Shown: positions 14,937-46,992, numbered from the stretch's first letter. The stretch is DNA of 64,000 nt from Pseudotabrizicola sp. (GCF_030656345.1 NZ_JAUSNR010000007.1:47365-111364); one strand, 5' to 3'. Program-made: numbers and translations. The notes: generated from the letters alone by a model not told the origin.

Positions 14937-14980
14937 GGGCGTGATGGGTCTGACCGCTTGTTCCCCTGCTCTGGCACCGG

Positions 14981-15092: not shown

Positions 15093-15125
15093 GACGACGC
15101 TGACCATAAAGAGAGGCTTTTCAAG

Positions 15126-26658: not shown

Positions 26659-26819
26659 TCATCGCTCGGCGAAGGGCGGGCGGGCAGGATGACCGGACGC
26701 AATCACTGGCCCGATGTCGCAAACCCTGCACCCACAAGCAGGGAGGGGAGCATACACCCGCACACATTGAGCCGATGCTACGGGCCTGCGTTGGCGGCCT
26801 TGTCTCAGGGAGGAATAAC

Positions 26820-30354: not shown

Positions 30355-31368
30355 ATGCACAGGTTTGCCACGCGCCATCCGGTCTGGGCCTTCGTCATCG
30401 CCATTGCGGCGGTGCTTGTGCTGTGGCTGATCTTCGCCCCCTGGCCTGCAGGTCTGGAACAGGTGATGGGCCGCAAGCGCGTCTTTCTGAATGCAGTGTT
30501 TGGCGGCATCACGCTTGGGGCCCTTTATTTTCTGGTGGCGTCCGGATTTACACTGATCTTCGGGCTGATGCGGAATGTGAACCTGGCGCATGGGTCGCTG
30601 TACCTGATCGGCGGCTATCTGGGATATGAGGTTTCCGATGCGACGGGGTCATGGCTGCTGGCCTTTCCGGTGGTGTTTGTCGTCGTCGCGGCGCTGGGCC
30701 TTGTTTTGCAACATCAGGTGTTTCGCCGGATGGAGGGACAGGATCTGCGCCAGACCATGGTGACCATCGGCCTGTCCATCGTTCTGGCCGATATCATGCT
30801 GTGGACCTGGGGCGGGCAGTCCTACACGGTGCTGGCCCCTGACTGGTTGTCGGGGCCGGTGGAACTGCCCATCATCAGCGGGATCGGGCAGGACGGGACC
30901 CCAGCCTACTTGCGTTATCCCAGCGTGCGCATCGCCATTCTGGTGGCGGCCATCCTGATCGGCCTTGCGATGTGGCTGGTTCTGAACCGCACACGGCTTG
31001 GCATGCTGATCCGCGCCGGCGTGGACGATCGCGAGATGCTGGCGGCGTCCGGGGTGCGGATTCAGGTGGTGTTTCTGGGCGTGTTTGCCTTCGGGGCCGG
31101 GCTGGCGGGCATCGCCGGGATCGTGGGCGGCACGTTTCAGTCTCTGTCGCCCGGTGAGGATACGCGGTTTTTGCTGGCCAGTCTGGTGGTGGTGATCGTA
31201 GGCGGCATGGGGTCCATTCCCGGCGCTGCCCTCGGTGCGGTGATCATCGGGCTGGCGGAACAACTGGGCCTTGTCTATGCGCCGACCTATTCGGTCGTCT
31301 CCACCTTCCTGATCATGGCGGTTGTGCTGGCCTTCCGCCCGCAGGGATTGCTGGGAGAGGGGCGCTGA
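30355..31368 (+). CDS. livH: HAAT ABC transporter permease (LivH-like)
   Basis: 337 aa. A multi-pass permease of the branched-chain family. An N-terminal TM (WAFVIAIAAVLVLWLIFA) precedes the LivH core with FGGITLGALYFLVASGFTLIFGLMRNVNLAHGSLYLIGGYL, which is the family signature. The EAA-like loop shows GMLIRAGVDDREMLAASGVRIQ. It overlaps livM at a shared base run (TGATG), so translation is coupled. It has an extra cytosolic/TM N-terminus of about 45 aa compared with a typical LivH. Confidence 0.93.
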   Translation: MHRFATRHPVWAFVIAIAAVLVLWLIFAPWPAGLEQVMGRKRVFLNAVFGGITLGALYFLVASGFTLIFGLMRNVNLAHGSLYLIGGYLGYEVSDATGSWLLAFPVVFVVVAALGLVLQHQVFRRMEGQDLRQTMVTIGLSIVLADIMLWTWGGQSYTVLAPDWLSGPVELPIISGIGQDGTPAYLRYPSVRIAILVAAILIGLAMWLVLNRTRLGMLIRAGVDDREMLAASGVRIQVVFLGVFAFGAGLAGIAGIVGGTFQSLSPGEDTRFLLASLVVVIVGGMGSIPGAALGAVIIGLAEQLGLVYAPTYSVVSTFLIMAVVLAFRPQGLLGEGR

Positions 31369-32414
31369 TGTCCGTGGTTGACCGCGATGCACCAGCCGTG
31401 CGGCTGTCTTTGATCGAGCGGGTGGACCCGGTGTGGTGGGTTATCGGGCTTGTGTTGCTGGCCATGCCCGCCTTTGCATCGAATTTCTTTCTGTTTCAGG
31501 TCTTTGGCTGGACCTTCATCCTTGGGATGATCGCGCTCAGTCTGATGTTCCTGGCGGGTTATGGCGGTATGGTCAGCCTGTTGCAGATGACGGTTGCGGC
31601 GCTGGCGGGCTATATGGTGGCGATCCTTGGCACCTCCGGGGTCGCGCTGAGCATCGGCTTGCCATGGTGGATCCATATCCCGGCGGCCATCCTCATCGCG
31701 GCGATCTTTGCCACGCTGATTGGCGCGCTGGCGGTGCGGACCGAAGGGATCTACACCATCATGATCACCCTCGCCATTGCCTCGGCCTTCTTTTACTTCA
31801 CCCGTCAGAACTACGGTGTGTTCAACGGCTATTCCGGCTTCAACCTGGTGGTCCCGCCGCGTCTGTTCGGGGTCGACTGGCGCCAGCCGGTGCCGTTCTA
31901 CTATCTGACGCTGGGCTGCGCGGTTCTGTCCTATGCCGCCGTTGTCTATGTGTCGCGCGCGCCGTTCGGGCTGGCGTTGCAGGGCGTGCGCGACAACCCG
32001 CGCCGGATGGCAGCCCTTGGGTTTTCCGTCACGGCGCACCGCATCGCGGCCTATACTTTTGCCAGTGTGATTGCCGCCATGGGGGGCATTCTGCTGGTCT
32101 GGCAAAATGCGCAGATCTCGCCGGGCACAGCAGGTCTGCCGGCGGTGTTCGACATTCTGGTGATTGCCGTGGTGGGCGGACTTAAGCGGCCCATTGGCCC
32201 CTTTATCGGTGCGCTCATCTACGTGCTGTTGCGCGTGTTCTCGCCCGATGTGCTGCTGGCCTTTGGGCTGTCGGGGGAACGCTTCAAGCTGATCATCGGG
32301 CTGGGCTTTCTGCTGATCGTGTTCTTCTCTCCTGATGGTGTGCTTGGCCTGTGGGAAAAATGGCGCGCCCGTCAGGCCCGGGGGTCAGATCCCTTGCGCG
32401 GAGGGCGGCCATGA
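31368..32414 (+). CDS. livM: HAAT ABC transporter permease (LivM-like)
   Basis: 348 aa, the second permease. LivM signatures: IALSLMFLAGYGGMVSLLQMTVAALAGYMVAI, LAVRTEGIYTIMITLAIASAFFY and FGLALQGVRDNPRRMAALGF, the last being the cytosolic coupling loop. The C-terminus is FFSPDGVLGLWEKWRARQARG. The start follows the livH stop in an overlapping TGATG and the stop overlaps the livG start, so this is a tight operon. The standard family motif GYGGQVSLG is a variant here (GYGGMVSLL). Confidence 0.93.
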   Translation: MSVVDRDAPAVRLSLIERVDPVWWVIGLVLLAMPAFASNFFLFQVFGWTFILGMIALSLMFLAGYGGMVSLLQMTVAALAGYMVAILGTSGVALSIGLPWWIHIPAAILIAAIFATLIGALAVRTEGIYTIMITLAIASAFFYFTRQNYGVFNGYSGFNLVVPPRLFGVDWRQPVPFYYLTLGCAVLSYAAVVYVSRAPFGLALQGVRDNPRRMAALGFSVTAHRIAAYTFASVIAAMGGILLVWQNAQISPGTAGLPAVFDILVIAVVGGLKRPIGPFIGALIYVLLRVFSPDVLLAFGLSGERFKLIIGLGFLLIVFFSPDGVLGLWEKWRARQARGSDPLRGGRP

Positions 32415-33202
32415 CGATGCTTGATGCCGCTGCCGACCGGCTGGGGTCCGTCAGTTCCGGCAATGCGCTGGAGTTGCGCGGTGTGACCAAGATGTTCGGC
32501 GCACTGGCCGCGATTTCCGACATCACCCTGTCGGTCCGTCCGGGGGAACGGCGGGCCGTGCTGGGGTCGAACGGGGCGGGCAAGACCACGCTGTTCAATT
32601 GCGTGACCGGGGACTTTTTGCCGACATCCGGCACGATCCGGCTGTTTGGCGAGGATGTGACGGCCTTTCCCGCCCATGAACGCATCCGCCGTGGCCTGCG
32701 CCGGACCTACCAGATATCGCTGCTGTTCGGTGGGCTGACGGTGGCCGACAACGTCTACCTTGCCTGCCGGGGTGTCAGCCGCAGCCGGTTTTCCCTTGTG
32801 CGTCCGCGTCGGGGCGACCCTTTGCTGATCCGCGCGGCAGAACTGATCGAGGCGGTTCACATGACCGCCTCGCGCCATGCGATGGTGTCCGACCTGTCCT
32901 ACGGCCAGCAGCGCCAGCTTGAAATCGCGCTGGCGCTGGCGGGTGCCCCGCGCTTCATCCTGTTTGACGAACCGGCAGCGGGCCTGTCGCCGACCGAGCG
33001 GCAGGAGCTGGTGGCGATCCTCACCGGGCTGCCGCGCCACATCGGGTTCATCATCATCGAGCATGACATGGATGTGGCGCTGCGCGTGGCCGAAAACGTG
33101 ACGATGATGCACAACGGCCGCATTTTCAAAGAGGGCACCCCGGCCGAGATCGAGGGCGACCCCGAGGTTCAGGCGCTGTATCTCGGAGGTGGCCATGACT
33201 GA
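32411..33202 (+). CDS. livG: HAAT ABC transporter ATPase (LivG-like)
   Basis: 263 aa from ATG 32411, which overlaps the livM stop by 4 bp. Walker A is [16 protein letters not shown], the signature is [19 protein letters not shown] and Walker B is [13 protein letters not shown]. The LivG-type Q-loop segment [23 protein letters not shown] is present. It powers the importer with the LivF-like fusion protein encoded next, whose start lies 8 bp inside this gene. The track's 32351 start has no ribosome-binding site and lies inside livM. Confidence 0.94.
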
Positions 33203-35360
33203 GCGCAAGGGACCCGCCGCGCTGGAGGTGCGTGGTCTGAACGTCTATTATGGGGCCAGTCATGCCCTGCAGGGGGTGGACCTGCGGCTGTCGGGCGGCG
33301 TGCTGTCGGTCGTCGGGCGCAACGGCATGGGCAAGACCACGCTGTGCAAGGCGATCATGGGGTTGGTGCCGGTGTCTTCGGGCACGATCACCTTTGCGGG
33401 CCAGCCGCTGGTGGGCAAGGGATCTGCCGAGATTGCGAACATGGGCATTGGCTATGTGCCGCAGGGGCGCCGGCTGTGGCGGTCGCTGACCGTGGACGAA
33501 CATCTGCGCATGATGGCGGGCAGGCGGCCCGGCCCCTGGACCGTTGACCGGGTCTATGCAACCTTTCCGCGTCTGGCCGAGCGCAAGGGCAACGGCGGCG
33601 CGCAGCTTTCGGGGGGCGAGCAGCAGATGCTGGCAATTTCCCGCGCGCTTCTGGCCAACCCGCGCCTTCTGGTGATGGACGAGCCGACCGAGGGCCTTGC
33701 CCCGGTGATCGTGGCGCAGGTCGAAGAGATGCTGGTCCGTCTGGCCGAGGACGGCGACATGGACGTGCTGGTGATCGAACAGAACATCGGCGTCGCCTGC
33801 GGCGTGGCCGATACGGTCGCAATCATGGTCAACGGGCGGATCAACCGCATCGCCCCCGCCCGCGAACTGGCCGCCGACCGCGAATTGCAACAGCGCCTGC
33901 TGGGTGTGGGCCGCCACGGCGAGGAGGATGCGCCCGAGGCACAGGCCGCCGCGCCTCAGGCCACCGACGCGCCGAAGGCCGCGAAAATCTACATGGCCAA
34001 TCCAAAGCCGCCGACCCGCTGGTCGCAGCCCGTGCCGGTGCTGCAGCTGGAACAGATGGCGCGGCTGCAGACCACGGCCCCGGTGGCGCTGGCGCAGGCC
34101 GAAATCCGCCCGCTCAGCGCCACGGGCGAACAGGTGGTGATCGTGGCCGGAACGCTGGACACCAAGGGCGACGAGCTGCGCTATATCCGCGACCTGATCC
34201 GCGCGGGTGGGCTGGCCGTGCGGATGGTGGACCTGTCCACCACCGGCGGCCATTTTGGGGCCGAAATCCCCGCCCATCAGGTCGCGGCTTTCCACCCGCG
34301 CGGGGCTGCGGGCGTGTTTACCGGCGACCGTGGCACGTCGGTTGCCGGCATGACCGAGGCTTTCACGCGCTGGATGGCGCGGGCCTCCGGGGTGGCGGGC
34401 GTGATTTCCGCAGGCGGGTCTGGGGGCACCGCGATGGTGGCCCCGGCGCTGCGCGGACTGCCCGTGGGCGTGCCCAAGCTGATCGTCTCGACCGTGGCGA
34501 GCGGCGAGGTGTCAAAATACGTCGGCCCCAGCGATATCATGATGATGCATTCGGTGGCCGATGTGCAGGGCCTGAATGCCATTACCGAAGAGGTGCTGGG
34601 CAACGCGGCACAGGCCATGATCGGCATGGTGCAGGCCCGCCGTGCCGCGCGCCCGCGCGCGGCTGGCAAACCTGCGATCGGGCTGACCATGTTCGGTGTC
34701 ACCACGCCTTGCGTCCAGCAGATCACCACGGCGCTGCGCGACGAATACGATTGCCTCGTGTTCCACGCCACCGGCATCGGCGGGCAGGCGATGGAAAAGC
34801 TGGTGGATGGCGGCAAGGTTCAGGGCGTCATCGACGTGACCACGACCGAGGTCTGCGACATGATGTGGGGCGGCGTCTTTCCGGCTACCGAAGACCGCTT
34901 CGGCGCGGTCATCCGCCGCCGCATGCCATACGTGGGATCGGTCGGCGCGCTGGATATGGTGAATTTTGGCGCACCCGACACCGTGCCCGAAAAATACCGT
35001 GGGCGGCTGTTTTATGAACACAACCCGCAGGTCACGCTGATGCGGACCACGCCTGCCGAGAACACCGCGATGGGCCGATGGATCGCCGCGCGGCTGAACG
35101 AGATGGAGGGGCCGGTGCGGTTCTTCCTGCCCGAGGGCGGCGTCTCGGCGCTGGATGCGCCCGGCCAGCCGTTTCACGATCCCGCCGCCCGCGCCGCCCT
35201 TTACACCGCGATCGGGGAAACGCTGCGCCAGACCGCGACGCGCCAGCTGATCCGCCTGCCGCATCATATCAATGATCCAGCCTTTTCCCAGGCGCTTGTC
35301 GCTGCGTTCCGCAGCCTGCATGGGGCCCCGAAAACCCGCCGAAAGGATGCCCGCAAATGA
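33195..35360 (+). CDS. LivF-type ABC ATPase fused to a Tm-1-like (UPF0261) ATP-binding domain
   Basis: 721 aa from ATG 33195, with GGAGGT 5 nt upstream. Residues 1-235 are a full LivF: Walker [17 protein letters not shown], signature [16 protein letters not shown], Walker [14 protein letters not shown]. An Ala/Pro-rich linker of about 75 aa follows. From about 312 comes [22 protein letters not shown], the start of a UPF0261/Tm-1 domain that continues to the end ([49 protein letters not shown]). Plant Tm-1 binds ATP and viral replication proteins; the bacterial role is unknown. Normal LivF proteins end near 235-240 aa. No frameshift or stop separates the halves, so the fusion is real in this sequence. 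Confidence 0.92.
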
Positions 35361-36184
35361 TCCGCCGCGACGATATCCTGCACAAGTTCCGTGGCATGAT
35401 CGCCGATGGCATTCCCATCGTGGGCGGCGGCGCGGGCACGGGCCTGTCGGCCAAATGCGAAGAGGCGGGCGGGATCGATCTGATCGTCATCTACAACTCG
35501 GGCCGCTACCGCATGGCGGGCCGGGGCTCGCTCGCAGGGCTGATGCCTTATGGCGACGCGAACGGCATCGTGGTCGAGATGGCCGCCGAGGTTTTGCCGG
35601 TGGTGAAGCACACCCCCGTTCTGGCCGGCGTCTGCGCCACCGACCCCTTCCGCCTGATGGATGTGTTTCTGGACGACCTCAAGCGGATCGGCTTTTCCGG
35701 TGTCCAGAACTTTCCCACCGTGGGGCTGATCGACGGCACCTTCCGCGCGAACCTTGAAGAAACCGGGATGAGCTATGCGCTGGAAGTGGAGATGATCGCC
35801 AAGGCCCGCGCCCGCGACATGCTGACCACGCCTTACGTGTTTGACGCGGCATCGGCGGCCGCCATGGCGGGGGCGGGGGCCGATATCATCGTGTGTCATC
35901 TGGGCCTGACCACCGGCGGCAGCATCGGGGCGGAAACCGCGCTGAAACTAAGCGATTGCCCGGCACTGGTTGATGACTGGGCCGCGGCGGCTCTGGCGGT
36001 GAACCCTGATGCCATCGTGCTGGTCCATGGCGGGCCGGTGGCGATGCCGGAGGATGCCGAATACGTCCTGAAAAATACAAAGCACTGCCACGGCTTCTAC
36101 GGAGCCTCTTCCATGGAGCGGCTGCCGACAGAGATGGCGCTGACCGAACAGACCAAGCGTTTCAAACAAATTCAAGGCCGATAG
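35357..36184 (+). CDS. Phosphoenolpyruvate hydrolase-family TIM-barrel protein (counterpart of the Tm-1 C-terminal half)
   Basis: 275 aa. Its start overlaps the fusion gene's stop in an ATGA. Family features: [78 protein letters not shown] and [19 protein letters not shown]. The family is annotated PEP hydrolase-like on structural grounds only. In plants the Tm-1 protein has a UPF0261 half followed by a TIM-barrel half of this kind, so here the two halves are split into neighbouring genes. A catabolic aldolase or hydrolase reaction is plausible. Confidence 0.88.
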
Positions 36185-36194: not shown

Positions 36195-39134
36195 ATGACC
36201 GGGCAACTGATCGGACAACTGATCTTGTGGCTGATTGTGGCGATTGTCGCCATCGCAATCCTCTACTGGGTGATGCAATGGCTGTTTCGCAGGTCCACCA
36301 AGGAAGTCGCCTTTGTGCGCACCGGATTTCTGGGCGAAAAGGTGGTGATCGACGGCGGTGCCTTCGTCTGGCCGATCATTCACGATATCACGCCTGTGAA
36401 CATGAACGTGCTTCCGCTCAAGGTCAGCCGCACCAAAGGGGCCGCGCTGATCACCAAGGACCGGATGCGCGTGGATGTGGAGGCAGAATTCTACGTCCGC
36501 GTGCGGCCCACCCCGGCCTCGGTTGCCACTGCGGCCTCGACCCTTGGCCGCCGCACACTGGAACCCGAAACGCTGCATGCGCTGCTGTCGGGCAAGTTCG
36601 AAAGTGCGCTTCGTGCGGTTGCCGCCGAGATGGAAATGGGTGCCATGCACGAGACCCGCGCCACCTATGTGGCCCGCGTGCGTGAGGCGGCACAGGAAGA
36701 TCTGGAGAAGAACGGGCTTGAACTGGAATCCGTGGCCATTCTGGACATTGACCAGACCAGCCTGGAATTCTTCAACCCCTCCAACCGGTTCGATGCCGAA
36801 GGTCTGACCGTCCTGATCAAGGACATCGAGGCCCGCCGCAAGATCCGCAACGACATCGAACAGGATGCGATGATCCAGATCCGCACCCGCAACCTTGAGG
36901 CCGAAAAGCAGGCGCTGGAGATCGAGCGGGCATCCGAGGAAGCGCGCCTTGAGCAGGAACGCGATGTGGAATTCCGCCGCGCCCGGCAGCGCGCCGAACT
37001 GGCCCGTGAACGTGCCACCCGCGAGACCGAGGCGGAAGAGGCCCAGATCACCTCACGCGAGGTGATCGAGATGGCACGCATCGCCAATGAGCGCACCATT
37101 GCCGAGGCCCGGATCGCATCGGAGCTTGATATCCGGGGCCGCGAGATTGCACGGCAAAAGGCGGTCGATGCCGATGAGCTTGCCGCGCGCGAAGACATCG
37201 AACGCGCGCGGATTCTTCAGGAACGTGCTCTGAAAGAGGCGCGCATCACGAATGAACAGGAAACCAGCACACAGGAAATCGCCCGCGCCCGCGCGCTGGA
37301 GGCCGCAGAGATCGAGGCACGCGAGGCCACCGAACGCGCCCGTATCGCGCAGGAAAAGGCGCTGACAGAGGCGCGCATTGCCAAGGACCGGGAAACTCAG
37401 GCCCTTGAAATCGCGCGCCAGCAGGCCACCGCCCAGGCCGAGATCGAGGCGGCCGAGGCCACTGAGAAGCGCAACATGGCCAAGACCTTGCTGATCAATC
37501 AGACCCGCATCCGGGGCGAGGAAACCATCCGCAAGCAGGAGATTGACCGTCAGAAGTCGTTGGACGAGGCCGAAATCGCCGCCCATGAGGCGACTGAACG
37601 GCTGCGCATCGTACAGGCAGCGCAGGTGTCCGAGGCGCGCATCAGCGAGGACCAGCGCATCCGTGAGATGGAAATCAGCCGCCAGCAGGCTATCGAGGCG
37701 GCCGAGATCGCCGCCGGTCAGGCCGTCGATGCCGCACGCATCGCACGCGAAAAGGCGGTGGCCGCAGAACGCATCGCCGCAGACCTTGCGACCCGCAGCA
37801 CCGAGATTGCGCGCGACACCGCGCTGGATCAGGCGCGCGTGGCGTCAAGCCAGACCGTCGATCAGGCCCGCATTGTCACCGAACAGGCGCTGGACGAGGC
37901 GCGCGTCGCCGCCGAACAGGCGGTGGAGGCCGCCCGCATCGCCCAGAAACGCAGTCTGGAGGCTGAACGCATTACCGCCGAACAGGCGGTGCGCACCCAG
38001 GCCATCACCCGCGATAAGGCGCTGGAAGCGGCCGAGATTGCCCGCCGCGAGGCGGTGGAGCGCGCCCGTATTGCCGCCGATCTGGCGCTGGAACAGGACC
38101 GCATCAGCAGTCAGAAAACCCGCGAGGTCACCGATATCGACCGCAAGCGCGAGGTCGAGGCCGCCGAAGATGCACGCGTGGTCGATCTGGCCACGGCCAA
38201 ATCTGCCCGCGCCGCAGCCGAGGCCGAGGTCCGGCGCGCGCAACTGGCCGCGCAGGCCTCTGTAGAGACCGCTGAGGTGGAGCGCGACCGCGCCGTCGAG
38301 ACCGCCCGCGTGGAACGCCGCCAGTCTTTGGAGCAGTTGGAAATCGCCCGCGTGCAGGCCCTGCGCGAAGCCGAGATCGAGTCACAGGAAGATGTGGAAC
38401 GCACCCGGATCGCTTCGGAACGCGGCCTCGACGAGATCCGCATCGCCCATCAGACCGAACGCCGCCGTCTGGAGGTGGAGCGCGAGCGCAGTGTGGAAAC
38501 GGCCCAGATGGAAAAGGCCATTTCCCTTTACCAGAAGTCACTGGAGGAAAGTGCCGCCCGGGCCGAGGCCGACGTTGCCCGCGCTCTGGCAGCGCAGGCC
38601 GAGGAAAAGGTCAAGACCGTGCGCGAAACCGAAGTGGCCGAGCGCCGGAAATCCGTCGATGTGCTGATGGCCGAGAAAGCCGCAGCAGAGGCACGGCTGA
38701 TGGCCGAGGCGGCGCAGGTCCGCGCCGTGGTCGAGGCGGAAGCGGCCAAGCTGATCAACGAAGCCGAAAACATCCTGACCGACGAAGCGCGCCATTCGTT
38801 GTTCAAGCGCAAGATGCTGGAGCATGTCGAAGGGATCGTCGCCGCATCGGTGAAGCCGTTGGAGAAAATTCAGGACATCAGGATCATGCAGCTTGACGGC
38901 ATGGGCGGCGGCGGTGGCAGCGGTGGCAGCCCCACCGATGAGGTCATCAACTCTGCCCTGCGCTACCGGGTGCAGGCCCCGCTGATCGACAGCCTGTTGT
39001 CTGACATCGGGATCGAGGGCGGCACCCTTGCCAAACAGGGCGGCCTGATCCGCGAGGCTTCTGATCTGGGCCGCATCGCTGCTGAGGCGTCGAAGAAAAG
39101 GCCCGAGGAGAAAAAGCCCGAGGAGAAGAAATAG
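36195..39134 (+). CDS. Giant flotillin-like SPFH protein with a long hendecad-repeat coiled coil
   Basis: 979 aa, about twice a normal flotillin/YqiK. An N-terminal TM (LIGQLILWLIVAIVAIAIL, 4-24) precedes an SPFH/PHB domain (about 35-215: EVAFVRTGFLGEKVVIDGG, RMRVDVEAEFYVRV, LDIDQTSLEFFNPSN). Residues 243 to about 770 form an Arg/Glu/Ala-rich helix. Residues 286-648 are 33 back-to-back 11-residue units ending mostly in RI, EI or RV (e.g. AQEKALTEARI). The C-terminus has a flotillin-like end, a Gly-rich MGGGGGSGG and a Lys/Glu tail. Flotillins scaffold membrane microdomains. It sits between transporter/Tm-1 genes and CoxG-like and Mo-hydroxylase genes, so it may hold this pathway at the membrane. 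Confidence 0.9.
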   Translation: MTGQLIGQLILWLIVAIVAIAILYWVMQWLFRRSTKEVAFVRTGFLGEKVVIDGGAFVWPIIHDITPVNMNVLPLKVSRTKGAALITKDRMRVDVEAEFYVRVRPTPASVATAASTLGRRTLEPETLHALLSGKFESALRAVAAEMEMGAMHETRATYVARVREAAQEDLEKNGLELESVAILDIDQTSLEFFNPSNRFDAEGLTVLIKDIEARRKIRNDIEQDAMIQIRTRNLEAEKQALEIERASEEARLEQERDVEFRRARQRAELARERATRETEAEEAQITSREVIEMARIANERTIAEARIASELDIRGREIARQKAVDADELAAREDIERARILQERALKEARITNEQETSTQEIARARALEAAEIEAREATERARIAQEKALTEARIAKDRETQALEIARQQATAQAEIEAAEATEKRNMAKTLLINQTRIRGEETIRKQEIDRQKSLDEAEIAAHEATERLRIVQAAQVSEARISEDQRIREMEISRQQAIEAAEIAAGQAVDAARIAREKAVAAERIAADLATRSTEIARDTALDQARVASSQTVDQARIVTEQALDEARVAAEQAVEAARIAQKRSLEAERITAEQAVRTQAITRDKALEAAEIARREAVERARIAADLALEQDRISSQKTREVTDIDRKREVEAAEDARVVDLATAKSARAAAEAEVRRAQLAAQASVETAEVERDRAVETARVERRQSLEQLEIARVQALREAEIESQEDVERTRIASERGLDEIRIAHQTERRRLEVERERSVETAQMEKAISLYQKSLEESAARAEADVARALAAQAEEKVKTVRETEVAERRKSVDVLMAEKAAAEARLMAEAAQVRAVVEAEAAKLINEAENILTDEARHSLFKRKMLEHVEGIVAASVKPLEKIQDIRIMQLDGMGGGGGSGGSPTDEVINSALRYRVQAPLIDSLLSDIGIEGGTLAKQGGLIREASDLGRIAAEASKKRPEEKKPEEKK
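37050..38138 (+). repeat. 33 tandem 33-bp coding units (11-residue hendecads) inside the flotillin-like gene
   Basis: Read in frame, residues 286-648 divide exactly into 33 units of 11 with no indel: TSREVIEMARI, ANERTIAEARI ... ARREAVERARI, AADLALEQDRI, SSQKTREVTDI. The last residue is Ile, Val, Leu or Met in every unit and the one before is usually R or E. The unit sequences differ, so the array is old or selected for register rather than freshly amplified. Confidence 0.9.
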
Positions 39135-39572
39135 ATGCCGCGCGTATATATCTCTTCGGTCATCGACGCGCCCGCGGCAAAGGTATGGGACAAGGTCCGC
39201 GATTTCAACGGATTGCCGCGCTGGCATCCCCGTATCCGCGACAGCCGGATCGAGAATGGCGAACCCGCAGACCGGGTGGGGTGCGTCCGCGACTTTCACC
39301 TGCAAAACGGTGACCGCATCCGCGAAAAGCTGCTGGGCCTGTCGGATTTCGATCTGTTCTGCACCTATGCGATCCTCGAATCCCCGATGCCCCTGACCGG
39401 CTATGTTGCGACCCTGCGGCTGACGCCGGTTACGGATGGCGACCGGACCTTTGCGGAATGGACGGCCGAGTTCGACTGCGAGGATGCGGTGGCCGAAGAT
39501 CTGGTGTCAGGCATCGGCACGAATGTCTTTCAGGCCGGTTTCGACGCGCTCAAGCGCCAGATGGCGGGTTGA
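39135..39572 (+). CDS. SRPBCC-family protein (polyketide cyclase/CoxG-like), first paralogue
   Basis: 145 aa. The start directly follows the flotillin stop, with GAGGAGAAG in the flotillin 3' end as the ribosome-binding site. START/SRPBCC features: SSVIDAPAAKVWDKVRDFNGLPRWHP and RTFAEWTAEFDCE. These helix-grip folds bind hydrophobic ligands. CoxG of carbon monoxide dehydrogenase clusters, which recruits the molybdoenzyme to the membrane, belongs to the same superfamily. Together with the next gene it forms a tandem paralogous pair (DFNG-x2-RWH and RxGCVRxF in both). Confidence 0.85.
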   Translation: MPRVYISSVIDAPAAKVWDKVRDFNGLPRWHPRIRDSRIENGEPADRVGCVRDFHLQNGDRIREKLLGLSDFDLFCTYAILESPMPLTGYVATLRLTPVTDGDRTFAEWTAEFDCEDAVAEDLVSGIGTNVFQAGFDALKRQMAG

Positions 39573-39575: not shown

Positions 39576-40022
39576 ATGGTAAAGGTGGTCAAAAGCACGG
39601 TCATGCAGGCCCCCGTCGAGGCGGTCTGGGATGTGATCCGCGATTTCAACGGTCATGACCGCTGGCATACCATCGTGGCGGAAAGCCATGTGGAAAAGGG
39701 CTGGCCCTCTGACCGGATCGGCTGCGTGCGCAATTTCCGCCTGACGGACGGGGCGAACCTGCGCGAGCAGCTCCTGACCCTGTCAGATGCAGACATGGCG
39801 TTCAGCTATTGCCTGCTCGACACGCCGGTGCCGCTTCTGAACTACGTCGCCCATGTGCGGCTGTCGCCCGTCACCGATGGCGACCGCACCTTCTGGCATT
39901 GGGAAAGCCGCTTCGACACGCCGCCGGGACGCGAGCGGGAATTGCACGACATGGTGGCAGAGCACGTCTATCAGGGCGGCTTTGATGCCGTCCGCGCCCA
40001 TATGGGGCTGGAGGGATCATGA
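39576..40022 (+). CDS. SRPBCC-family protein, second paralogue
   Basis: 148 aa, 3 bp after its paralogue. TVMQAPVEAVWDVIRDFNGHDRWHTIV, RIGCVRNFRLTDG and RTFWHWESRFDTPP align one-to-one with the preceding protein. Its stop overlaps the start of the FAD-subunit gene in an ATGA. The tandem may form a heterodimer. The position immediately upstream of the Mo-hydroxylase FAD subunit recalls CoxG or other ligand-binding helpers. Substrate binding or a cyclase step is the alternative. Confidence 0.85.
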   Translation: MVKVVKSTVMQAPVEAVWDVIRDFNGHDRWHTIVAESHVEKGWPSDRIGCVRNFRLTDGANLREQLLTLSDADMAFSYCLLDTPVPLLNYVAHVRLSPVTDGDRTFWHWESRFDTPPGRERELHDMVAEHVYQGGFDAVRAHMGLEGS

Positions 40023-40819
40023 CGATACAGGTGGAAACCTATACCACGCTGGCCGAGGCGGCGCGCGCCATGGGGACGGATGCCACCTATCTTGGGGGCG
40101 GTACGCTGGTCATGCGCGACGTGAATGCCGGCGTGGCCCCGGCGCGGATCCTGCGGGTGACAGACCCGACCTTACAACAGATCCGCACGCAGGGGGACGG
40201 GGTATCCATCGGGGCCGGGGTGACGATGGCAGCGGTTCTCGCCGCGCGGGAACTGGACTGGCTGCACCCGGTCGCGCGGTCCGTGGGCGGGCCGCAGGTG
40301 CGCAACATGGCCACGGTGGGGGGCAATCTGTTTGCCGCCCATCCTTACGGCGATTTCACCGCGGCACTGCTGGCTTTGGGCGCGCGCGTTGTGGCGGTCG
40401 GGCAGGGCGCACGCCCGCTGGAAGACCTGCTGCGCGACCGTGGACGCGCCGCGCTGATCGCCAGCATCGAGGTGCCGCGCCCGCGCAACCCGGCTGACTT
40501 TGCCTTTGCCAAGGTCAGCCGGATCAAGCCCAAGGGCGTGTCGGTTCTGTCCATTGCCGTGCATCTGCCGCGTGAAGGCGGGCGGATACGGGGCGCGCGC
40601 GTGGCTTTCGGTGCCATGGGGCCGACGCCGCTGCGCGCGGCGGCGGTGGAGCGGGTGCTGGAAGGGCAGGCGCTGGACGCGGCCACGATCGCGCGAGCGG
40701 CGCAGGTGGCATCCGAGGGGCTGGACCCGCCGACCGATGCCATCGCCAGCGCATGGTATCGGCGCGAGGTGGCGGGGGTGCATCTGCGCCGCCTGCTGGA
40801 ACGGATGGGGGGCCGCTAG
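40019..40819 (+). CDS. Molybdenum hydroxylase FAD-binding (medium) subunit
   Basis: 266 aa. This FAD subunit of the xanthine-oxidase family passes electrons from the 2Fe-2S centres to the final acceptor. Near residue 22 it has YLGGGTLVMRDVNAG (a variant of the first FAD loop AGGTDLL), then the second FAD motif NMATVGGNLFAAHPYGDF, and the C-terminal CO_deh_flav_C region. The order medium-small-large is as in cox/xdh-type operons. It is translationally coupled to the SRPBCC gene, and the small-subunit gene starts 1 bp after its stop. Confidence 0.93.
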   Translation: MTIQVETYTTLAEAARAMGTDATYLGGGTLVMRDVNAGVAPARILRVTDPTLQQIRTQGDGVSIGAGVTMAAVLAARELDWLHPVARSVGGPQVRNMATVGGNLFAAHPYGDFTAALLALGARVVAVGQGARPLEDLLRDRGRAALIASIEVPRPRNPADFAFAKVSRIKPKGVSVLSIAVHLPREGGRIRGARVAFGAMGPTPLRAAAVERVLEGQALDAATIARAAQVASEGLDPPTDAIASAWYRREVAGVHLRRLLERMGGR

Positions 40820-41293
40820 ATGGCGAAACGACCTGTGACATTCACCCTGAACGGACACGACCGCGCGGCCTTTGCCGATGACGGTCAGAACCTGCTGGAC
40901 TTTCTGCGCCGCAGTGTCGGCGACATGTCGCCAAAATATGGCTGCGGTCAGGGCACCTGCGGTGCCTGCACCGTCACCATCGACGGAGCCACGCATCTGG
41001 CCTGCCTGACGCTGGCCGAGGCGGTGCAGGGCTGCCGGGTCGAGACCGCCGCAGGGCTGGCCACACCCGCATTGCACCCGCTGCAAGAGGCGTTCATGGA
41101 ACATTTCGCGGCCCAGTGCGGCTATTGCACGCCCGGCATGCTGATTTCGGCCAAGGCGCTTCTGGACCGCAATCCTGCGCCCACGCGCGATGAGGTGATC
41201 GAGGCGATCAGCGGCAATATCTGCCGCTGCACCGGGTATGAGCCGATTATCTCGGCCATCCTGTCGGTGGCTGGCGGGAGGGTGCGGGCATGA
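40820..41293 (+). CDS. Molybdenum hydroxylase 2Fe-2S (small) subunit
   Basis: 157 aa. The N-terminal plant-type ferredoxin cluster is YGCGQGTCGACTVTIDG plus a fourth Cys in HLACLTL. The C-terminal four-helix cluster is CGYCTPGMLISAKALL with ICRCTGYEPI. Both 2Fe-2S sites are complete, so the subunit is expected to be functional. The stop overlaps the start of the large-subunit N-half by 4 bp. Confidence 0.96.
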   Translation: MAKRPVTFTLNGHDRAAFADDGQNLLDFLRRSVGDMSPKYGCGQGTCGACTVTIDGATHLACLTLAEAVQGCRVETAAGLATPALHPLQEAFMEHFAAQCGYCTPGMLISAKALLDRNPAPTRDEVIEAISGNICRCTGYEPIISAILSVAGGRVRA

Positions 41294-42984
41294 CCGGCGG
41301 CAACGGGATCGAATTCCGCAAGGAGTTTTTCGCGGATGAGCGCGACGACAATCTGAATGAAGTGGGCAAGCCCACGCGCCGACAGGATATTCCCGGCCAT
41401 GTCACCGGCCGTTCGCCCTTTTATGACGACCACAGGTTCGACGGCCTGCTGCACATCCGCTGCGTGCGCTCGCCCCATCACCACGCCCGCATCCGCCGCA
41501 TCGATACCACTGACGCGGCCCGCATGCCCGGCGTGCGGCGGGTGCTGGTGGGCGCGGATGTGCCGCGCAACCTCAACACCCTGCTGTCGCTGCTGGATTT
41601 CGGCCTCGACGACGAACCGCTGCTGGCCGAAACCAAGGTGGCCTACAAGGGAGAGCCGGTGGCGGCGGTGATCGCCGAGACAGAGGCGCAGGCCCGCGCG
41701 GCGGTGGCACGGGTGCGGGTGGACTGGGAGGTTATGCCCCATGTCCTCGACGTCGAAGAGGCGATCAAGCCGGGGGCCCCCACGGTGTGTGAGGTCTATC
41801 CGACCAACAAGTTCATCTATCACGGCAAGTATGACCACCAGAAGCTGCGGTTCGGCGATGTGGAGGCGGCCTTCGCCCGCGCCGACCACATCGTCGAGGG
41901 GCGCTATCAGATGTCGCCCATCGAACAGGCCCCGATCGAGACCTGCGGTGCCATCGCCGCCCCCGAACAGAACGACCGCTATGTCTGCTATACCTCTACG
42001 CAGGCGCTGTTCTTCTCGCTGGGCACGGCGGCCAAGGTGCTGACCATGCCATCCTCGCGCCTGCATTTCATCGGCGGCACCGTGGGCGGCGGCTTTGGCG
42101 GCAAGGTGGACAGCATCCACGAACCCATCGCGATTCTGGGCGCCATGCTGACCGGGCGGCCCTGCAAGTTCATGTGGGACCGCGAGGAAGAGATGCAGGT
42201 GGGTGCCCCGCGTGGGGCCGAACGCTGGTATCTGAAAGATGCCGTCATGCGCGATGGCCGGATCATCGCGCGCAAGTTCACTGGCTATTTCGACAGCGGC
42301 GCCTATACCCGCCTGTCATCCTACGCGATCATCAAGGGCGTGGGGCACCTGCCGGGCCCCTATACGATCCCGAATGTGCATGCCGATGTCTACTGCGTCT
42401 ATACCAACCGGACGCCTGCGACAGCGATGCGCGGCTTTGGCATCACCGGTGTCGATTTCGCCATCGAAACCCATATGGACAAGGTGGCCGATGTGGTCGG
42501 GATGAACCCGGTCGATCTGCGCATCCTCAATGCGTATCGCGACGGCGACATGAAGGCGCATCGGCGTCTGGCCAAGAACACCGCGCTGATCGAATGCTGT
42601 CAGGTGGTGGCAGACAAGGCCGGCATCGCCCTTACCCCCGCGTCCCGCGCGGCCTCGTCGCTGAAAGACGGCGGGGGAGAGCGGGCCGCGCTGCCATCGC
42701 ATACCGTGACCGATCAGGCGGGCCGGGTTCAGGGGTTTGATACCGGCAGCTATGCCAGAAAGGGCGCGAAACCCGCACCCGAGGCGATGATGCCGCCAGC
42801 CTCCCCCCGCGTGCCCCCCACCCCCATCCCCTTCCCAACAGGGGGAGGGGAGGTGCCGCCGCCGCCGGTCGCCCCCACACCGGCCCCCAAACCGAGCCCC
42901 GCGCAGGCACCCGAAACCACGCCCGCACCCGCCCGCACCGGCGCGTTGCGCTTTTCGTCCCTTTCCGGTTTCAGGAGGCGCTGA
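41290..42984 (+). CDS. Molybdenum hydroxylase large subunit, N-terminal half, with Pro-rich C-terminal tail
   Basis: 564 aa. It contains the first aldehyde-oxidase/XDH domain (VGKPTRRQDIPGHVTGRSPFYDD, VAYKGEPVAAVIAET) and the first part of the Mo-cofactor domain (GGTVGGGFGGKVDS, WDREEEMQVGAPRG, TPATAMRGFGITGVDFAIE). The active-site loop reads AMRGFGIT, as in XDH-like enzymes, not the AYRCSFR of Cu-Mo CO dehydrogenase. Homology stops near residue 450 (CCQVVADKAGI). Then come about 55 low-conservation residues and a Pro/Ala-rich tail encoded partly by a GC-rich hairpin. The catalytic Glu is not here but in the next gene. Confidence 0.9.
   Translation: MTGGNGIEFRKEFFADERDDNLNEVGKPTRRQDIPGHVTGRSPFYDDHRFDGLLHIRCVRSPHHHARIRRIDTTDAARMPGVRRVLVGADVPRNLNTLLSLLDFGLDDEPLLAETKVAYKGEPVAAVIAETEAQARAAVARVRVDWEVMPHVLDVEEAIKPGAPTVCEVYPTNKFIYHGKYDHQKLRFGDVEAAFARADHIVEGRYQMSPIEQAPIETCGAIAAPEQNDRYVCYTSTQALFFSLGTAAKVLTMPSSRLHFIGGTVGGGFGGKVDSIHEPIAILGAMLTGRPCKFMWDREEEMQVGAPRGAERWYLKDAVMRDGRIIARKFTGYFDSGAYTRLSSYAIIKGVGHLPGPYTIPNVHADVYCVYTNRTPATAMRGFGITGVDFAIETHMDKVADVVGMNPVDLRILNAYRDGDMKAHRRLAKNTALIECCQVVADKAGIALTPASRAASSLKDGGGERAALPSHTVTDQAGRVQGFDTGSYARKGAKPAPEAMMPPASPRVPPTPIPFPTGGGEVPPPPVAPTPAPKPSPAQAPETTPAPARTGALRFSSLSGFRRR
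42802..42855. repeat. GC-rich hairpin-like element inside the Pro-rich tail region
   Basis: ccccacccccatcccctt ... aacagggggaggggagg forms an imperfect inverted repeat that looks like a common extragenic repeat ('ccctccccctgttggg'-type) yet is read through in frame as PPTPIPFPTGGGEVPPPP. It lies at the point where the large subunit is divided. Confidence 0.5.
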
Positions 42985-44012
42985 TGACCCTGCACCGTGG
43001 CCGCGGCTTTGCCGCCATCAACTATCCCATCGGCATGAACCTTGGCGGTGACCCGAGTCAGGCGCTGGTCCATTCCAACCCTGACGGCAAGTTCACCGTG
43101 GCCCTGTCGGCCATCGACCTGGGGCAAGGGATGAAATCGGTCACCCGCCAGATTGCGGCCGAAACCCTCGGGGTGCCGGTCGAGGATGTCTATGTCGACA
43201 CCGCCGACAGCGACACCGGCCCGCATGACATGGGGTCTTTCGCCAGCCGCGGCACGCACCGGATGGGCAATGCGGTGATCATGGCCGCACAGGAAGCCCG
43301 AGGCGTGATGCTGGAGGCCGCAGCGGAAGAGCTGGAGGTGGATGCGGCTGACCTTGTTACCGACGGGCGCGGCAACATCCATGTGAAGGGCGCGCCGTCG
43401 CGGTCCATCACCACCATGGCCGCGGCGCAGGCCGCCCAGTTCCGTCAGGGCCGCACCATTGCCGGGCGCGGCATTTTCCTCATCCCGCTGTCCGAGGTCG
43501 ATCCGGATACCGGCGAGATGACCCCGGTGTCGTGCTTCGCCCATGCGGCCCTGCTGGTCGAGATCGAGGTGGATGACGAGACGGGGGAAGTTTCGGTGCT
43601 CGACATGCAGTCGGCTTATGAGGTCGGCCGCGCCCTAAATCCGCGTCTGGTGGAACAGCAGTTGCGCGGCGGTGCCTGGATGGGGATGAGCCATGCGCTG
43701 TGGGAAACCACCGAACCGCATTATCCGTCGCGTGACCATGGGCCGATCGATTTCAACACCTATCTGATGCCCGGCCCCGGTGACCTGGCCCCGCACCACA
43801 TCTCGGTGCTCGAACGCCCCGCGCCCGATGGCCCCTATGGGGGCAAGGGCCCGGGCGAGATGTGCGCCAATCCGGTGCTGCCTGCGGTCGCCAACGCAGT
43901 CTATGACGCGGTGGGCGTGCGTATCGACGATCTGCCGATCACGCCCGAAAAAATCCTGCGCGGGTTGCAGGCCCTCGGCGGTGCCAAACCCCGCAACCGG
44001 CTGGGGCGGTAG
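42984..44012 (+). CDS. Molybdenum hydroxylase large subunit, C-terminal half
   Basis: 342 aa. It starts in an overlap (TGATG) with the preceding stop and has a strong AGGAGG 8 nt upstream. The protein begins TLHRGRGFAAINYP, exactly where the second Mo-cofactor domain of an intact large subunit would start, and continues with ALSAIDLGQGMKSVTRQIAAE, DTADSDTGPHDMGSFASRGTH and the catalytic-Glu motif GPYGGKGPGEMCANPVLPAVANAVYDAVG. Together, N-half plus C-half minus the Pro-rich tail give a normal large subunit of about 780-800 aa. The two halves must assemble, since the cofactor site is built from both. Confidence 0.9.
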   Translation: MTLHRGRGFAAINYPIGMNLGGDPSQALVHSNPDGKFTVALSAIDLGQGMKSVTRQIAAETLGVPVEDVYVDTADSDTGPHDMGSFASRGTHRMGNAVIMAAQEARGVMLEAAAEELEVDAADLVTDGRGNIHVKGAPSRSITTMAAAQAAQFRQGRTIAGRGIFLIPLSEVDPDTGEMTPVSCFAHAALLVEIEVDDETGEVSVLDMQSAYEVGRALNPRLVEQQLRGGAWMGMSHALWETTEPHYPSRDHGPIDFNTYLMPGPGDLAPHHISVLERPAPDGPYGGKGPGEMCANPVLPAVANAVYDAVGVRIDDLPITPEKILRGLQALGGAKPRNRLGR

Positions 44013-44016: not shown

Positions 44017-44898
44017 ATGGTCATCCGCCCCTCCATCCTTGGCATCGACGGGCCGGCTCCGCTGGCGCAATCGCTGCGCGACGCGCAATACATCGCGGAC
44101 GAGGGGCTTTCGACCGCTGCCTATCTGGCGCTTGCCCTTGGCAAACCTTTGTTGCTTGAAGGGGCACCGGGGGTGGGCAAGACCGAAGCTGCCAAGGCGA
44201 TTGCTTCGGTGCTGGGCCGCGAACTGGTGCGGCTGCAATGCTATGAAGGGATCGATTCCGCCGCAGCCCTGTATGACTGGAACTTTCCCCGCCAGATGCT
44301 GGCAATCCGGCAGGCGGGCGACGGCTACATCAACCTTTATGCCGACGACTACCTTCTGGCGCGCCCGATGCTTCAGGCCCTGCAGGCCCCCCGCGACTGT
44401 GTCCTGCTGATCGACGAGATCGACCGCGCGGATCATGAGTTCGAGGCGTTCCTGCTCGAATTCCTGTCCGATTTCACCATATCGATCCCCGAACGCGGCA
44501 CCATCCGCGCGACGGAACCGCCCGTCGTGGTTCTGACCTCCAACCGCACGCGCGAGTTGCACGAGGCCCTGCGCCGCCGCTGTGTTTATCACTGGATCGG
44601 CTATCCCGATCCGTCGCTGGAGGCGCAGATCGTGATGATGCGCGCCTCGACTGTCGCGCAGGATACGGCGCACAGGGTCGTCGCCGCCGTCAACCGCCTG
44701 CGCGCCGAACCGCTGGCCAAGCCGCCCGGCGTGGCCGAAACCGTTGAATGGGCCGAAGCCGCCACGCTGTTGCAGAAACAGGGGGCACCATGGCCCCGGG
44801 CCTTTGCCCGCGCCATCGGCGTGGTTCTGAAGGATCAGGATGATCTGACCTATATCGCTCCCCGCCTCGACGCGCTGTTGCAGGGGACGGCGGCATGA
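44017..44898 (+). CDS. MoxR-family AAA+ ATPase (CoxD-like maturation factor)
   Basis: 293 aa from ATG 44017. Walker A is LLLEGAPGVGKTEAAKAIA, Walker B is CVLLIDEIDRADHEFEAFLLEFL, sensor 1 is PVVVLTSNRTRELHEALRRRC. MoxR ATPases paired with vWA proteins act as chaperones that insert or activate metal cofactors; CoxD does so for CO dehydrogenase. The location directly after the Mo-hydroxylase genes and before a vWA gene fits. The ORF track start at 43780 lies inside the preceding gene and is not used. Confidence 0.93.
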   Translation: MVIRPSILGIDGPAPLAQSLRDAQYIADEGLSTAAYLALALGKPLLLEGAPGVGKTEAAKAIASVLGRELVRLQCYEGIDSAAALYDWNFPRQMLAIRQAGDGYINLYADDYLLARPMLQALQAPRDCVLLIDEIDRADHEFEAFLLEFLSDFTISIPERGTIRATEPPVVVLTSNRTRELHEALRRRCVYHWIGYPDPSLEAQIVMMRASTVAQDTAHRVVAAVNRLRAEPLAKPPGVAETVEWAEAATLLQKQGAPWPRAFARAIGVVLKDQDDLTYIAPRLDALLQGTAA

Positions 44899-45001: not shown

Positions 45002-46111
45002 ATGACGCGCGCCATGCCACTTCCACGCGCTCTTGCCCCCTTTCTCACCTTCGCACAGGTGCTGCGCGGCCATGGCTTTCTGGCCGCGCCAGACCAGACC
45101 CGGACCTTCATTGCCGCCACCGGCCTGCTTGGCCCCGCATCCCTGCGCGACATCCGCCGCGCAGCACACGCGACCTTCGGCCCGCCCCCCGAACGCCACG
45201 CGGAATTCGATGCGCTGTTTGACAAGGTCTTTCTTGGCATGGCTTTTGCCGCCCCCGCGCCGGGCGAGGCCGAAGATCTGCCGACCGCCTATGATGCGGG
45301 CGATGCGGCGCTTTTGCCCGAACCTGAAGACGAAGATCCATCGGGTGCCGAGGCGACGGCCCTTGAACGCCTGACCGCGCGGGCGTTCGCTGAGGATGCG
45401 GATGGCCTGCGCGCCTTTGCCCGCGCGGTGCCACGCGCTTTGCCACGCCGCCGGGCCCGCCGCTTGACCCCGGGCAGGGGCCGTGCCCCTGATCCGTCGC
45501 GCACCTTTCGCGCCATGCTGCGTCATGACGGCGAAATCACCCGCCTGCCACGCCGGACCCGTCAGACCCGGCAGCGGCGCGTGTTGCTGCTGATCGACGT
45601 GTCAGGCTCGATGAAAGCGGGCACCGAAGGCGCGATGCGGCTGAGTCACGCTCTGGTGCAGGCGGGGGAACGGGTGGAGGTCTTTACCCTTGGCACCCGG
45701 TTGACCCGCGTCAGCCGTGCCCTGCGCCACCGCAACCGCGATCAGGCGCTGATACGGGCGGCGGGGCTGGTGGCCGACTGGGACGGCGGCACGCGGCTGG
45801 GTGAGGCGCTGCAGGTCTTCCTCGCCGTGCCACGCTTTGCCGGCTTTGCGCGGGGTGCCTTGGTGGTCGTGCTGTCCGACGGGCTGGAACGCGGCGGGCC
45901 GGAGGCGCTGGTGCAGGCCATGGACCGGATGCGCGGCCTTGCCTGGTCGGTGCTGTGGTTGTCACCGCTGGCCGCCGATCCGGCCTACCGGGTTGAGACC
46001 GGGGCGATGCGGGCGATTGCGCCGATGATCGACCGGCTGGGCAACGGGGCCACCCCGCAGGCCATCGCGGCCGAGATCCTGACTTTCGCAAAGGGAGCAC
46101 GCGCGGCATGA
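45002..46111 (+). CDS. CoxE-like von Willebrand factor A domain protein
   Basis: 369 aa. The N-terminal helical part (residues 1-180) has an acidic stretch (LPEPEDEDPSGAEAT) and an Arg-rich segment. The vWA fold starts at RRVLLLIDVSGSMKAGTEGA, where MIDAS DxSxS is intact, and continues VAVFTLGTRLTRVSRAL-like and LVVVLSDGLERGG. CoxE partners MoxR ATPases in molybdoenzyme maturation. The stop overlaps the amidohydrolase start in an ATGA. Likely soluble, as no TM is seen. Confidence 0.9.
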   Translation: MTRAMPLPRALAPFLTFAQVLRGHGFLAAPDQTRTFIAATGLLGPASLRDIRRAAHATFGPPPERHAEFDALFDKVFLGMAFAAPAPGEAEDLPTAYDAGDAALLPEPEDEDPSGAEATALERLTARAFAEDADGLRAFARAVPRALPRRRARRLTPGRGRAPDPSRTFRAMLRHDGEITRLPRRTRQTRQRRVLLLIDVSGSMKAGTEGAMRLSHALVQAGERVEVFTLGTRLTRVSRALRHRNRDQALIRAAGLVADWDGGTRLGEALQVFLAVPRFAGFARGALVVVLSDGLERGGPEALVQAMDRMRGLAWSVLWLSPLAADPAYRVETGAMRAIAPMIDRLGNGATPQAIAAEILTFAKGARAA

Positions 46112-46992
46112 GGGTGATCGACGCACATTTCCACGTCTGGCGGCAGGCCGATCTGCCCTGGCTGTCAGGCCCGATGCAGCCGCGTATCTTCGGCCCCTAT
46201 GAGCCGATCCGGCGCGACTATCCGATGACTGAATATCTGGCCGATGCCGTGCCGCAGGGCGTGGAGCGGGCGGTCTATGTGCAGGCCAACTGGCCTGTTG
46301 AAAGGGCTTTGGACGAAGTGGCCTGGCTGGAGGGGCTGGCGCAGGACACCGGCTGGCCGCACGGCATCGTGGCCTTTGCCGACATGACGGTGGCCGATGC
46401 CCGCCCGGCGCTGGACCGCCTGATGCGCTTTCCCCGCCTGCGCGGCATTCGCCAGCAACTGCATTATCACGATAACCCGCTCTATCGCTTTGCCTCGGGG
46501 CCGGACCTTTGCGAGGATAGGGCAGTACAGAAAAACATTGCAACCTTAGGCGGTTACGGCCTGACCTTCGACCTTCAGGTCTTTCCTGCGCAGATGGCCG
46601 GGGCAGCGCGTCTGGCGCAGGCTTGTCCTGCGACGACATTCGTCCTGCAACACGCCGGAATGCTGGAGGATACCACCGATGCCGGACGCGCCGCATGGCG
46701 CGAGGCGATGGCCACGCTGGCCGCCTGCCCGAATGTGGTGGCAAAGCTGTCCGGCTTCGGCACCTTCATCCACCGCAACGATCCGGCCCATATCGGCTGG
46801 CTGATCTCGGAAACCATTGGCCTGTTCGGCGCTGACCGCTGCCTCTGGGGGTCGAACTTCCCCATCGAAAAGCTCTGGACCGGCTATGCCGCGCTGCTGT
46901 CTGCGCACCGCGCGGGGGCTGCTGCCTTCACCCAGTCCGAACAGGACGCGATCTTCTGGAACACCGCAGCCCGGGTCTACCGGCTGACCTGA
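46108..46992 (+). CDS. Amidohydrolase-family (COG3618-type) lactonase/hydrolase
   Basis: 294 aa. A TIM-barrel metal-dependent hydrolase of the L-fuconolactonase / 2-pyrone-4,6-dicarboxylate lactonase group. The N-terminal metal motif is VIDAHFHVW (HxH), then the barrel strand His in TTFVLQHAGML and the C-terminal LWGSNFPIEKLW, where this subgroup carries Asn in place of the usual Asp. It is coupled to the vWA gene by a 4-bp overlap. In a pathway with a ring hydroxylase this would be a ring-opening step. The substrate is unknown. Confidence 0.88.
   Translation: MRVIDAHFHVWRQADLPWLSGPMQPRIFGPYEPIRRDYPMTEYLADAVPQGVERAVYVQANWPVERALDEVAWLEGLAQDTGWPHGIVAFADMTVADARPALDRLMRFPRLRGIRQQLHYHDNPLYRFASGPDLCEDRAVQKNIATLGGYGLTFDLQVFPAQMAGAARLAQACPATTFVLQHAGMLEDTTDAGRAAWREAMATLAACPNVVAKLSGFGTFIHRNDPAHIGWLISETIGLFGADRCLWGSNFPIEKLWTGYAALLSAHRAGAAAFTQSEQDAIFWNTAARVYRLT

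Follow-up and report, generated by a model that had tools for sequence, protein, structure and literature searches.

A 64,000-nucleotide stretch of DNA from Pseudotabrizicola sp., referred to here as the window, encodes a giant flotillin whose long wall helix follows an exact code of 11-residue units (hendecads). The unit carries two hydrophobic stripes, the length of the wall changes almost exclusively in whole units across relatives, and the gene is part of a fixed operon. The reading that is considered moderately probable is that this SPFH protein is the subunit of a closed, helical-walled basket on the inner membrane, with a wall built from 11-residue units, that would corral the encoded pathway. 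Giant flotillins as such are already known (PMC2636767). As far as the open-access literature shows, in which no paper joining 'hendecad' with SPFH proteins was found, what is new comprises an exact hendecad code with two faces, quantised wall lengths with a conserved stutter, the four-unit super-repeat, flotillin walls that reach 924 aa and a fixed operon.

Domains and predicted structure of the giant flotillin

The gene is a real open reading frame on the plus strand (36195..39134) that encodes 979 aa and has orthologues in 80 named loci. The SPFH (Band_7) domain lies at residues 37-186 (36303..36752; PF01145, E 3.5e-17, 63.4 bits against a cut-off of 23.6), which places the protein in the SPFH / Band 7 superfamily. 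The flotillin C-terminal domain Flot lies at residues 826-940 (38670..39014; PF15975, E 1.1e-31, 110 bits against a cut-off of 27) and covers the end of the wall helix and the presumed cage cap. The flotillin identity proposed in the preliminary description is borne out by these two Pfam domains. The FloT equivalog model NF058507 is not reached (33.5 bits against a cut-off of 700). By sequence profile, the SPFH domain matches the human Flotillin-1 structures 9bq2 and 9l3g (E 2.8e-8). A phmmer search with the full protein also returned the Rab-family leucine-rich structures 8r4b and 5il7, which were set aside as compositional matches to the repeat. Band_7 is found at five places in the genome and Flot only at this gene. 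The nearest relatives assign the window to a Rhodobacteraceae genome.

The protein begins with a hydrophobic membrane segment at residues 3-38 (36201..36308), recognised from the sequence and predicted as a helix over the same residues by AF2. It is directly followed by the basic residues RR..K, so that by the positive-inside rule the SPFH domain and the wall probably face the cytoplasm. The wall helix spans residues ~201-860 (36795..38774) in AF2 models of the full-length protein and of residues 713-979. The full-length model has helices at 201-418 and 444-860 at low confidence (mean pLDDT 59.6, pTM 0.23), and the model of residues 713-979 has a helix at 714-862 with a pLDDT above 90 over most of it, a break after ~862 (placed at ~863 for the Flot boundary) and then weak helices where the cap should begin. 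A long helix, earlier put at about 520 residues, is supported in its order of size. The break at residues 419-443 in the full-length model (37449-37523) coincides with the least regular units, TEKRNMAKTLL and INQTRIRGEET. The 11-residue register continues unchanged through this break, which may be a hinge in the modelled protein.

An exact register of 11-residue units

Residues 286-648 divide into 33 units of 11, as had been noticed before, and the last residue is I, V, L or M in 33/33: IIILIIIIIIIIMIIIIIIIIIIVIVIIIIIII. The array is even longer than these 33 units, since an 11-state HMM trained on the flotillin family follows a continuous register from 244 to 668 (38.6 units; 36924..38198), then a shift of exactly +3, and then a second array from 669 to 774 (9.6 units; 38199..38516). 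The same HMM has the register start at residue 244 in almost every relative, those of 685 aa among them, and the +3 stutter is conserved in one class of homologues.

In the spectrum of large aliphatic residues in 286-648, the peaks are the harmonics of 11 at 5.50, 2.75 and 2.20 residues; their power is 49, 39 and 26, while 200 shuffles reached 11 at most. The same region gives no heptad signal (power of 0.05 at 7/2), and heptad orders reach 0.3 or less in the window flotillin, which does not fit a heptad coiled coil. A comparison of 11/3 with 7/2 had been suggested as a check. The array is not a simple 11/3 coiled coil with a single seam: the order-1 (11/3) power of 6-7 is at the shuffle level, and the power of orders 2, 3 and 5 is 27-50. 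A super-period of four units is also present: identity is 0.37-0.44 at lag 44, drops to 0.23-0.28 when the lag is 11, 22 or 33, and to 0.07-0.16 when it is no multiple of 11.

Two hydrophobic stripes on the wall helix

When the units are plotted on an 11/3 wheel, V, I, L and T occupy 0 degrees (position 1) and I (78%) occupies 131 degrees (position 6). At 33, 65 and 98 degrees R, E, D and Q prevail, and at 229-295 degrees A prevails. The wall helix has two hydrophobic seams that are ~131 degrees apart. A helix flanked by two neighbours in the wall of a barrel would be expected to have two such seams, and the two-stripe unit suits a cage wall of adjacent helices better than it suits a bundle or a rod.

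Hendecads form right-handed coiled coils. A few helices could in this manner wind into a rod or bundle that would extend up to 100 nm into the cytoplasm as a tether or spacer, perhaps to a second membrane, and the helix is amply long for it. The narrow end of flotillin can indeed bind a second membrane (PMC11260169). However, the single-seam core (a, d, e and h, with a dominant 11/3 period) of a canonical hendecad coiled coil is not what the wheel displays: the 33-degree position is 87% R/E, order-1 power is at noise, and the SPFH and Flot ends belong to ring-forming proteins. A rod or bundle is therefore considered improbable. The preliminary description had offered a rod and a membrane cage side by side; the cage is the best reading and the rod the weaker option, because the unit is bifaceted rather than single-seamed.

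The 11-residue period is also shared by alpha-synuclein, perilipins and LEA proteins, which have one continuous hydrophobic stripe. This likeness would suit a lipid-binding 3-11 amphipathic helix that lies flat on the membrane or on a storage granule. The single hydrophobic face of such 11-mer helices is not found in the window protein, as its large aliphatic residues form two stripes 131 degrees apart with charged residues in the short arc, which leaves this explanation very improbable.

Wall lengths change in steps of 11 residues

Wall length was taken from an anchor in the SPFH domain to an anchor in the cap and was obtained for 75 of the 80 loci from named genomes, all with the same gene order as the window. 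L035 and L079 were left out, their frame being lost before the cap. The 75 loci have 31 distinct wall lengths between 484 and 924 aa, and 30 of these 31 fall into two residue classes modulo 11 that differ by the +3 stutter (relative to the window, 22 lengths are in class 0, 8 in class 8 and 1 in class 5). The nominal probability of this distribution is below 1e-18, with distinct lengths used as a conservative count for loci that are related. The C-terminal tails served as a control; among their 32 distinct lengths, only 11 are in the best two classes. The class 8 proteins are without the +3 stutter, and their HMM register is unbroken for up to 62.6 units. Walls of 539-822 aa are covered by cultured strains besides MAGs. 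Walls in class 8 are also found in shorter relatives, at 239, 250 and 371 aa where the operon is the same and at 261 and 272 aa in other short proteins.

L095 and L013 were considered as counter-examples and rejected. L095 (wall 588), the sole exception among the measured loci, has a normal array and a 6-aa gap that falls outside it, nearer the cap. L013 (wall 221) is a distant, long-branch row on the tree, and L156 (wall 323, class 4) is a more distant relative with no array detected. Freely varying registers and register-breaking indels in homologues had been named as outcomes that would speak against the repeat. The comparison of homologues did not refute it, and lengths step almost exclusively by 11 or by the +3 stutter. 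The SPFH-region tree, in which many branches are poorly resolved, requires at least 52 length changes and only 7 class changes.

Near-identical proteins display these steps directly. L081 and L089 differ by an exact 88-aa block, L091 and L096 by an exact 44-aa block, and L088 and L089 by 14 aa (11+3) with 876/884 aligned residues identical; this last difference is a clean gain or loss of the stutter. The 44-aa and 88-aa variants come from MAGs, where errors in assembling repeats may play a part. The steps might reflect repeat mutation only, by slippage or recombination between 33- or 132-bp units, and not selection on a barrel. The existence of the 44-aa super-repeat agrees with this, as does the pair that differs by exactly one 44-aa unit, beside which the neighbouring copy is 81% identical in DNA, the highest value observed. 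Elsewhere, identity between repeat copies in DNA is only 37-61% over the lags examined, and it is 45-57% for the copies on either side of the exact 88-aa difference. Since the DNA copies have diverged, slippage alone is unlikely to explain the 11-aa steps in full. Moreover, the register is common to the short walls of 239-371 aa, ordinary indels are frequent in the tails of the same proteins, and the 14-aa difference cleanly adds or removes the stutter. An explanation by mutation only is accordingly given a low probability.

The operon and its genomic setting

All genes of the operon are on the plus strand. Upstream of the flotillin gene are an ABC importer periplasmic binding protein (26463..28082, start codon uncertain; Pfam Peripla_BP_6), a LivH-type permease (30355..31368), a LivM-type permease (31368..32414), a LivG-type ATPase (32351..33202, start codon uncertain), a LivF-type ATPase fused in one frame to UPF0261 (Tm-1-like) (33189..35360; Pfam ABC_tran, UPF0261 and UPF0261_C) and a PEP_hydrolase-like TIM-barrel protein (35357..36184; PF09370, E 3.8e-131). 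Downstream are two SRPBCC/START-like proteins (39135..39572 and 39576..40022; both Pfam Polyketide_cyc2), the FAD subunit of a molybdenum hydroxylase (CoxM-like; 40019..40819; Pfam FAD_binding_5 and CO_deh_flav_C), its 2Fe-2S subunit (CoxS-like; 40820..41293), and its molybdenum subunit, of which the first part (41290..42984; Pfam Ald_Xan_dh_C and MoCoBD_1) and the second part (42984..44012; Pfam MoCoBD_2) are separate genes. These are followed by a CoxD-like AAA+ ATPase (44017..44898; Pfam AAA), a CoxE-like VWA protein (45002..46111; Pfam VWA_CoxE) and an amidohydrolase (46108..46992; Pfam Amidohydro_2) that overlaps the end of the CoxE gene by 4 bases and possibly belongs to the same operon. 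LivH, LivM, LivG and CoxS were assigned from their reading frames and conserved synteny. These four and the other members of the set, namely the LivF-UPF0261 fusion, the flotillin, the two SRPBCC proteins, CoxM, the split molybdenum subunit, CoxD and CoxE, are present in the order given above in 52/52 giant loci with enough flanking DNA, and the PEP-hydrolase-like gene is present in 50/52.

Several features of these and neighbouring genes were also observed. In plants, Tm-1-like proteins join UPF0261 to a TIM-barrel domain (PMC5028733), and in the window the LivF-UPF0261 fusion gene (33189-35360) adjoins the PEP_hydrolase-like TIM barrel. The molybdenum-binding subunit is split into MoCoBD_1 and MoCoBD_2 genes in 56/56 loci in which both halves were found (41290-44012 in the window; L066-L145), and its first half ends in a Pro-rich tail in the window. 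In a short-flotillin operon (L060, 10366-11847), a single frame of 493 aa joins the second SRPBCC protein to a zinc-type alcohol dehydrogenase, possibly as a carrier-enzyme fusion. Farther off in the window, genes for a DAO-type oxidase and a sarcosine oxidase alpha-like protein (13686-18319) lie beside a glutamate-type dehydrogenase gene (12066-13571), and a Prim-Pol/PriCT_2/VapE-like protein near the window end (58694-60907) suggests an integrated mobile element or prophage remnant.

The molybdenum hydroxylase genes resemble the Mo-CO dehydrogenase (cox) clusters in having CoxM/S/L-type subunits, CoxD and CoxE. They differ from them in that the molybdenum subunit is split and in their linkage to the importer, UPF0261, the PEP-hydrolase-like protein and the flotillin. 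The active-site loop motif of the CODH subunit CoxL is AYXCSFR. This Mo-Cu CO dehydrogenase loop is absent from 41290-42984, in which the corresponding region reads RTPATAMRGFG. The small SRPBCC proteins are comparable to CoxG of the cox clusters, for which recruitment of CODH to the membrane has been proposed (PMC4240915).

Core genes up to the SRPBCC genes are kept in 11/12 relatives with walls of 239-371 aa, whereas CoxM, CoxD and CoxE are found in 0/12 of them. Distant CoxS/CoxL-like genes occur on the other strand in 1/12, and one short-wall operon goes on with an alcohol dehydrogenase, an FAA hydrolase, an alpha/beta hydrolase and an amidohydrolase. The operon core is accordingly a catabolic module that includes an importer, and the wall became giant in the lineage that acquired the molybdenum hydroxylase. 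On the SPFH-region tree, giant length and the hydroxylase each correspond to one change, and their co-occurrence was for this reason rejected as independent evidence. The link to molybdenum hydroxylase clusters that had been suggested is thus universal among the giants, but a single evolutionary event provides neither independent replication nor independent proof of function.

In the main functional rival to a corral, the cage would, together with CoxD and CoxE, hold the hydroxylase as a chaperone or house its maturation, and would not serve as a transporter or membrane corral. The flotillin FloA of Staphylococcus aureus has been reported to stabilise unfolded proteins (PMC11222466), and CoxD and CoxE mature Mo-CO dehydrogenase (PMC4240915). 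The same operon core with a shorter flotillin nevertheless occurs without any molybdenum hydroxylase, from which it follows that maturation of this enzyme was not the ancestral role; the chaperone reading is regarded as rather unlikely.

Comparison with known SPFH proteins

In 2009, Hinderhofer et al. reported giant SPFH2 proteins of 800-1000 aa (PMC2636767). Like these SPFH2b proteins, the window protein is a flotillin-type SPFH protein with a strongly expanded coiled-coil region and an overlapping size (979 aa, helix ~201-860, compared with ~800-1000 aa and an expanded helical region). In the accessible part of that account, periodicity, length quantisation and an operon of this kind are not found. 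The SPFH2 group is described there as typically paired with NfeD, which differs from the window genome, where no PF01957 match occurs at E<=0.001 in the whole genome. Since the same account describes SPFH2 partners with no more than weak similarity to NfeD, and some genomes that have SPFH2 but no NfeD, this absence makes SPFH2 membership less likely without excluding it.

The human Flotillin-1/2 cage (9bq2; PMC11260169) shares with the window protein an SPFH base, a long wall helix, a cap and a heptad-free wall. Its wall is a right-handed barrel made up of 44 helices of 186 aa that stand side by side (PMC11260169). The wall helix of the window protein is ~660 residues, compared with 44-189 in solved or modelled SPFH proteins, and is ~3.5 times longer than the human one. 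The preliminary statement that flotillin coiled coils are heptad-like and far shorter is not supported, given the heptad-free solved wall (PMC11260169) and the 800-1000 aa giants already reported in 2009 (PMC2636767). Human flotillins are lipid-anchored SPFH1 proteins, and the window protein has its N-terminal hydrophobic segment instead. As the human FLOT1 wall gives no hendecad signal, the barrel analogy rests on the flanking domains.

Flotillin, HflK/C, prohibitins and erlins form baskets in which the SPFH domains sit on the membrane and adjacent helices make up the wall, which is capped at its narrow end (PMC11260169, PMC12624060), and the QmcA-YbbJ cage is cytoplasmic (PMC13086221). HflK/C, prohibitin, Erlin and QmcA-YbbJ are likewise membrane-anchored SPFH rings, with short walls and other operon partners, unlike the window protein. 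A second, separate giant SPFH group (L146-L154; 852-938 aa, ~37% identical in the SPFH domain) is without hendecads; its spectrum has peaks close to 2.22 and 2.86 residues, and repeats of another length can be seen. A hendecad code for all flotillins was rejected, as the code is absent in FLOT1 and L146-L154 and weak in ordinary 530-570-aa paralogues.

The proposed basket and its implications

In the proposed basket, the subunits would assemble like those of flotillin, HflK/C and prohibitin into a structure that is anchored in the inner membrane and projects into the cytoplasm. The location of the Band_7 and Flot domains at opposite ends of the helix, as found with Pfam, is counted in its support, as are the match to the Flotillin-1 structures, the stepped wall lengths, the two-stripe pattern, the predicted helix, the heptad-free barrel of flotillin and the constant operon. 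Against it count the low confidence of the full-length AF2 model and its break at 419-443, the FLOT1 wall without hendecads, the genome without an NfeD partner and the single gain of giant length and hydroxylase. A large aliphatic residue (V, I or L at position 1) and an isoleucine (position 6), ~131 degrees apart, would give each unit two hydrophobic faces. One arc between them would be lined by alanine and the other by charged residues, which would let each helix pack against two neighbours. A gain or loss of 11 residues would change the wall by ~16 Angstrom and, because 11 residues make three helical turns, would keep the lateral packing faces in phase and unrotated, which may account for the whole-unit steps in wall length. 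The Liv-type importer, the cytoplasmic molybdenum hydroxylase with its maturation partners CoxD and CoxE, and both SRPBCC carriers would be corralled by the basket on a single patch of membrane, and the most likely function of the basket would be to organise the pathway encoded around the flotillin gene.

At 1.5 Angstrom per residue the wall helix is ~99 nm long, and the basket is expected to be very roughly 60-90 nm high when tilt is allowed for. A structural study from 2025 has proposed, from walls of ~190 aa at most (PMC11260169), that wall length sets the subunit number according to y = 0.1782x + 10.22 (PMC12624060). By this regression, extrapolated far outside its data, the window protein would form a ring of ~128 subunits. 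If the regression held, about two subunits would be added per unit, and rings of more than 100 subunits, heavier than the eukaryotic vault, would result. A wider and more tentative proposal, viewed as somewhat doubtful, is a family of bacterial membrane cages whose height would be set by a protein ruler, in which the bifaceted unit is repeated from ~7 to more than 70 times and cages could be 60-120 nm tall.

The related operons provide a natural ladder of orthologues, with walls from 239 to 924 aa in steps of 11 and many in cultured strains, that could reveal whether wall length sets the height of an SPFH cage, its subunit number or both. Protein designers could also adopt the hendecad as a simple code for building right-handed walls of helices, and the operon is a tractable system for finding what a flotillin does.
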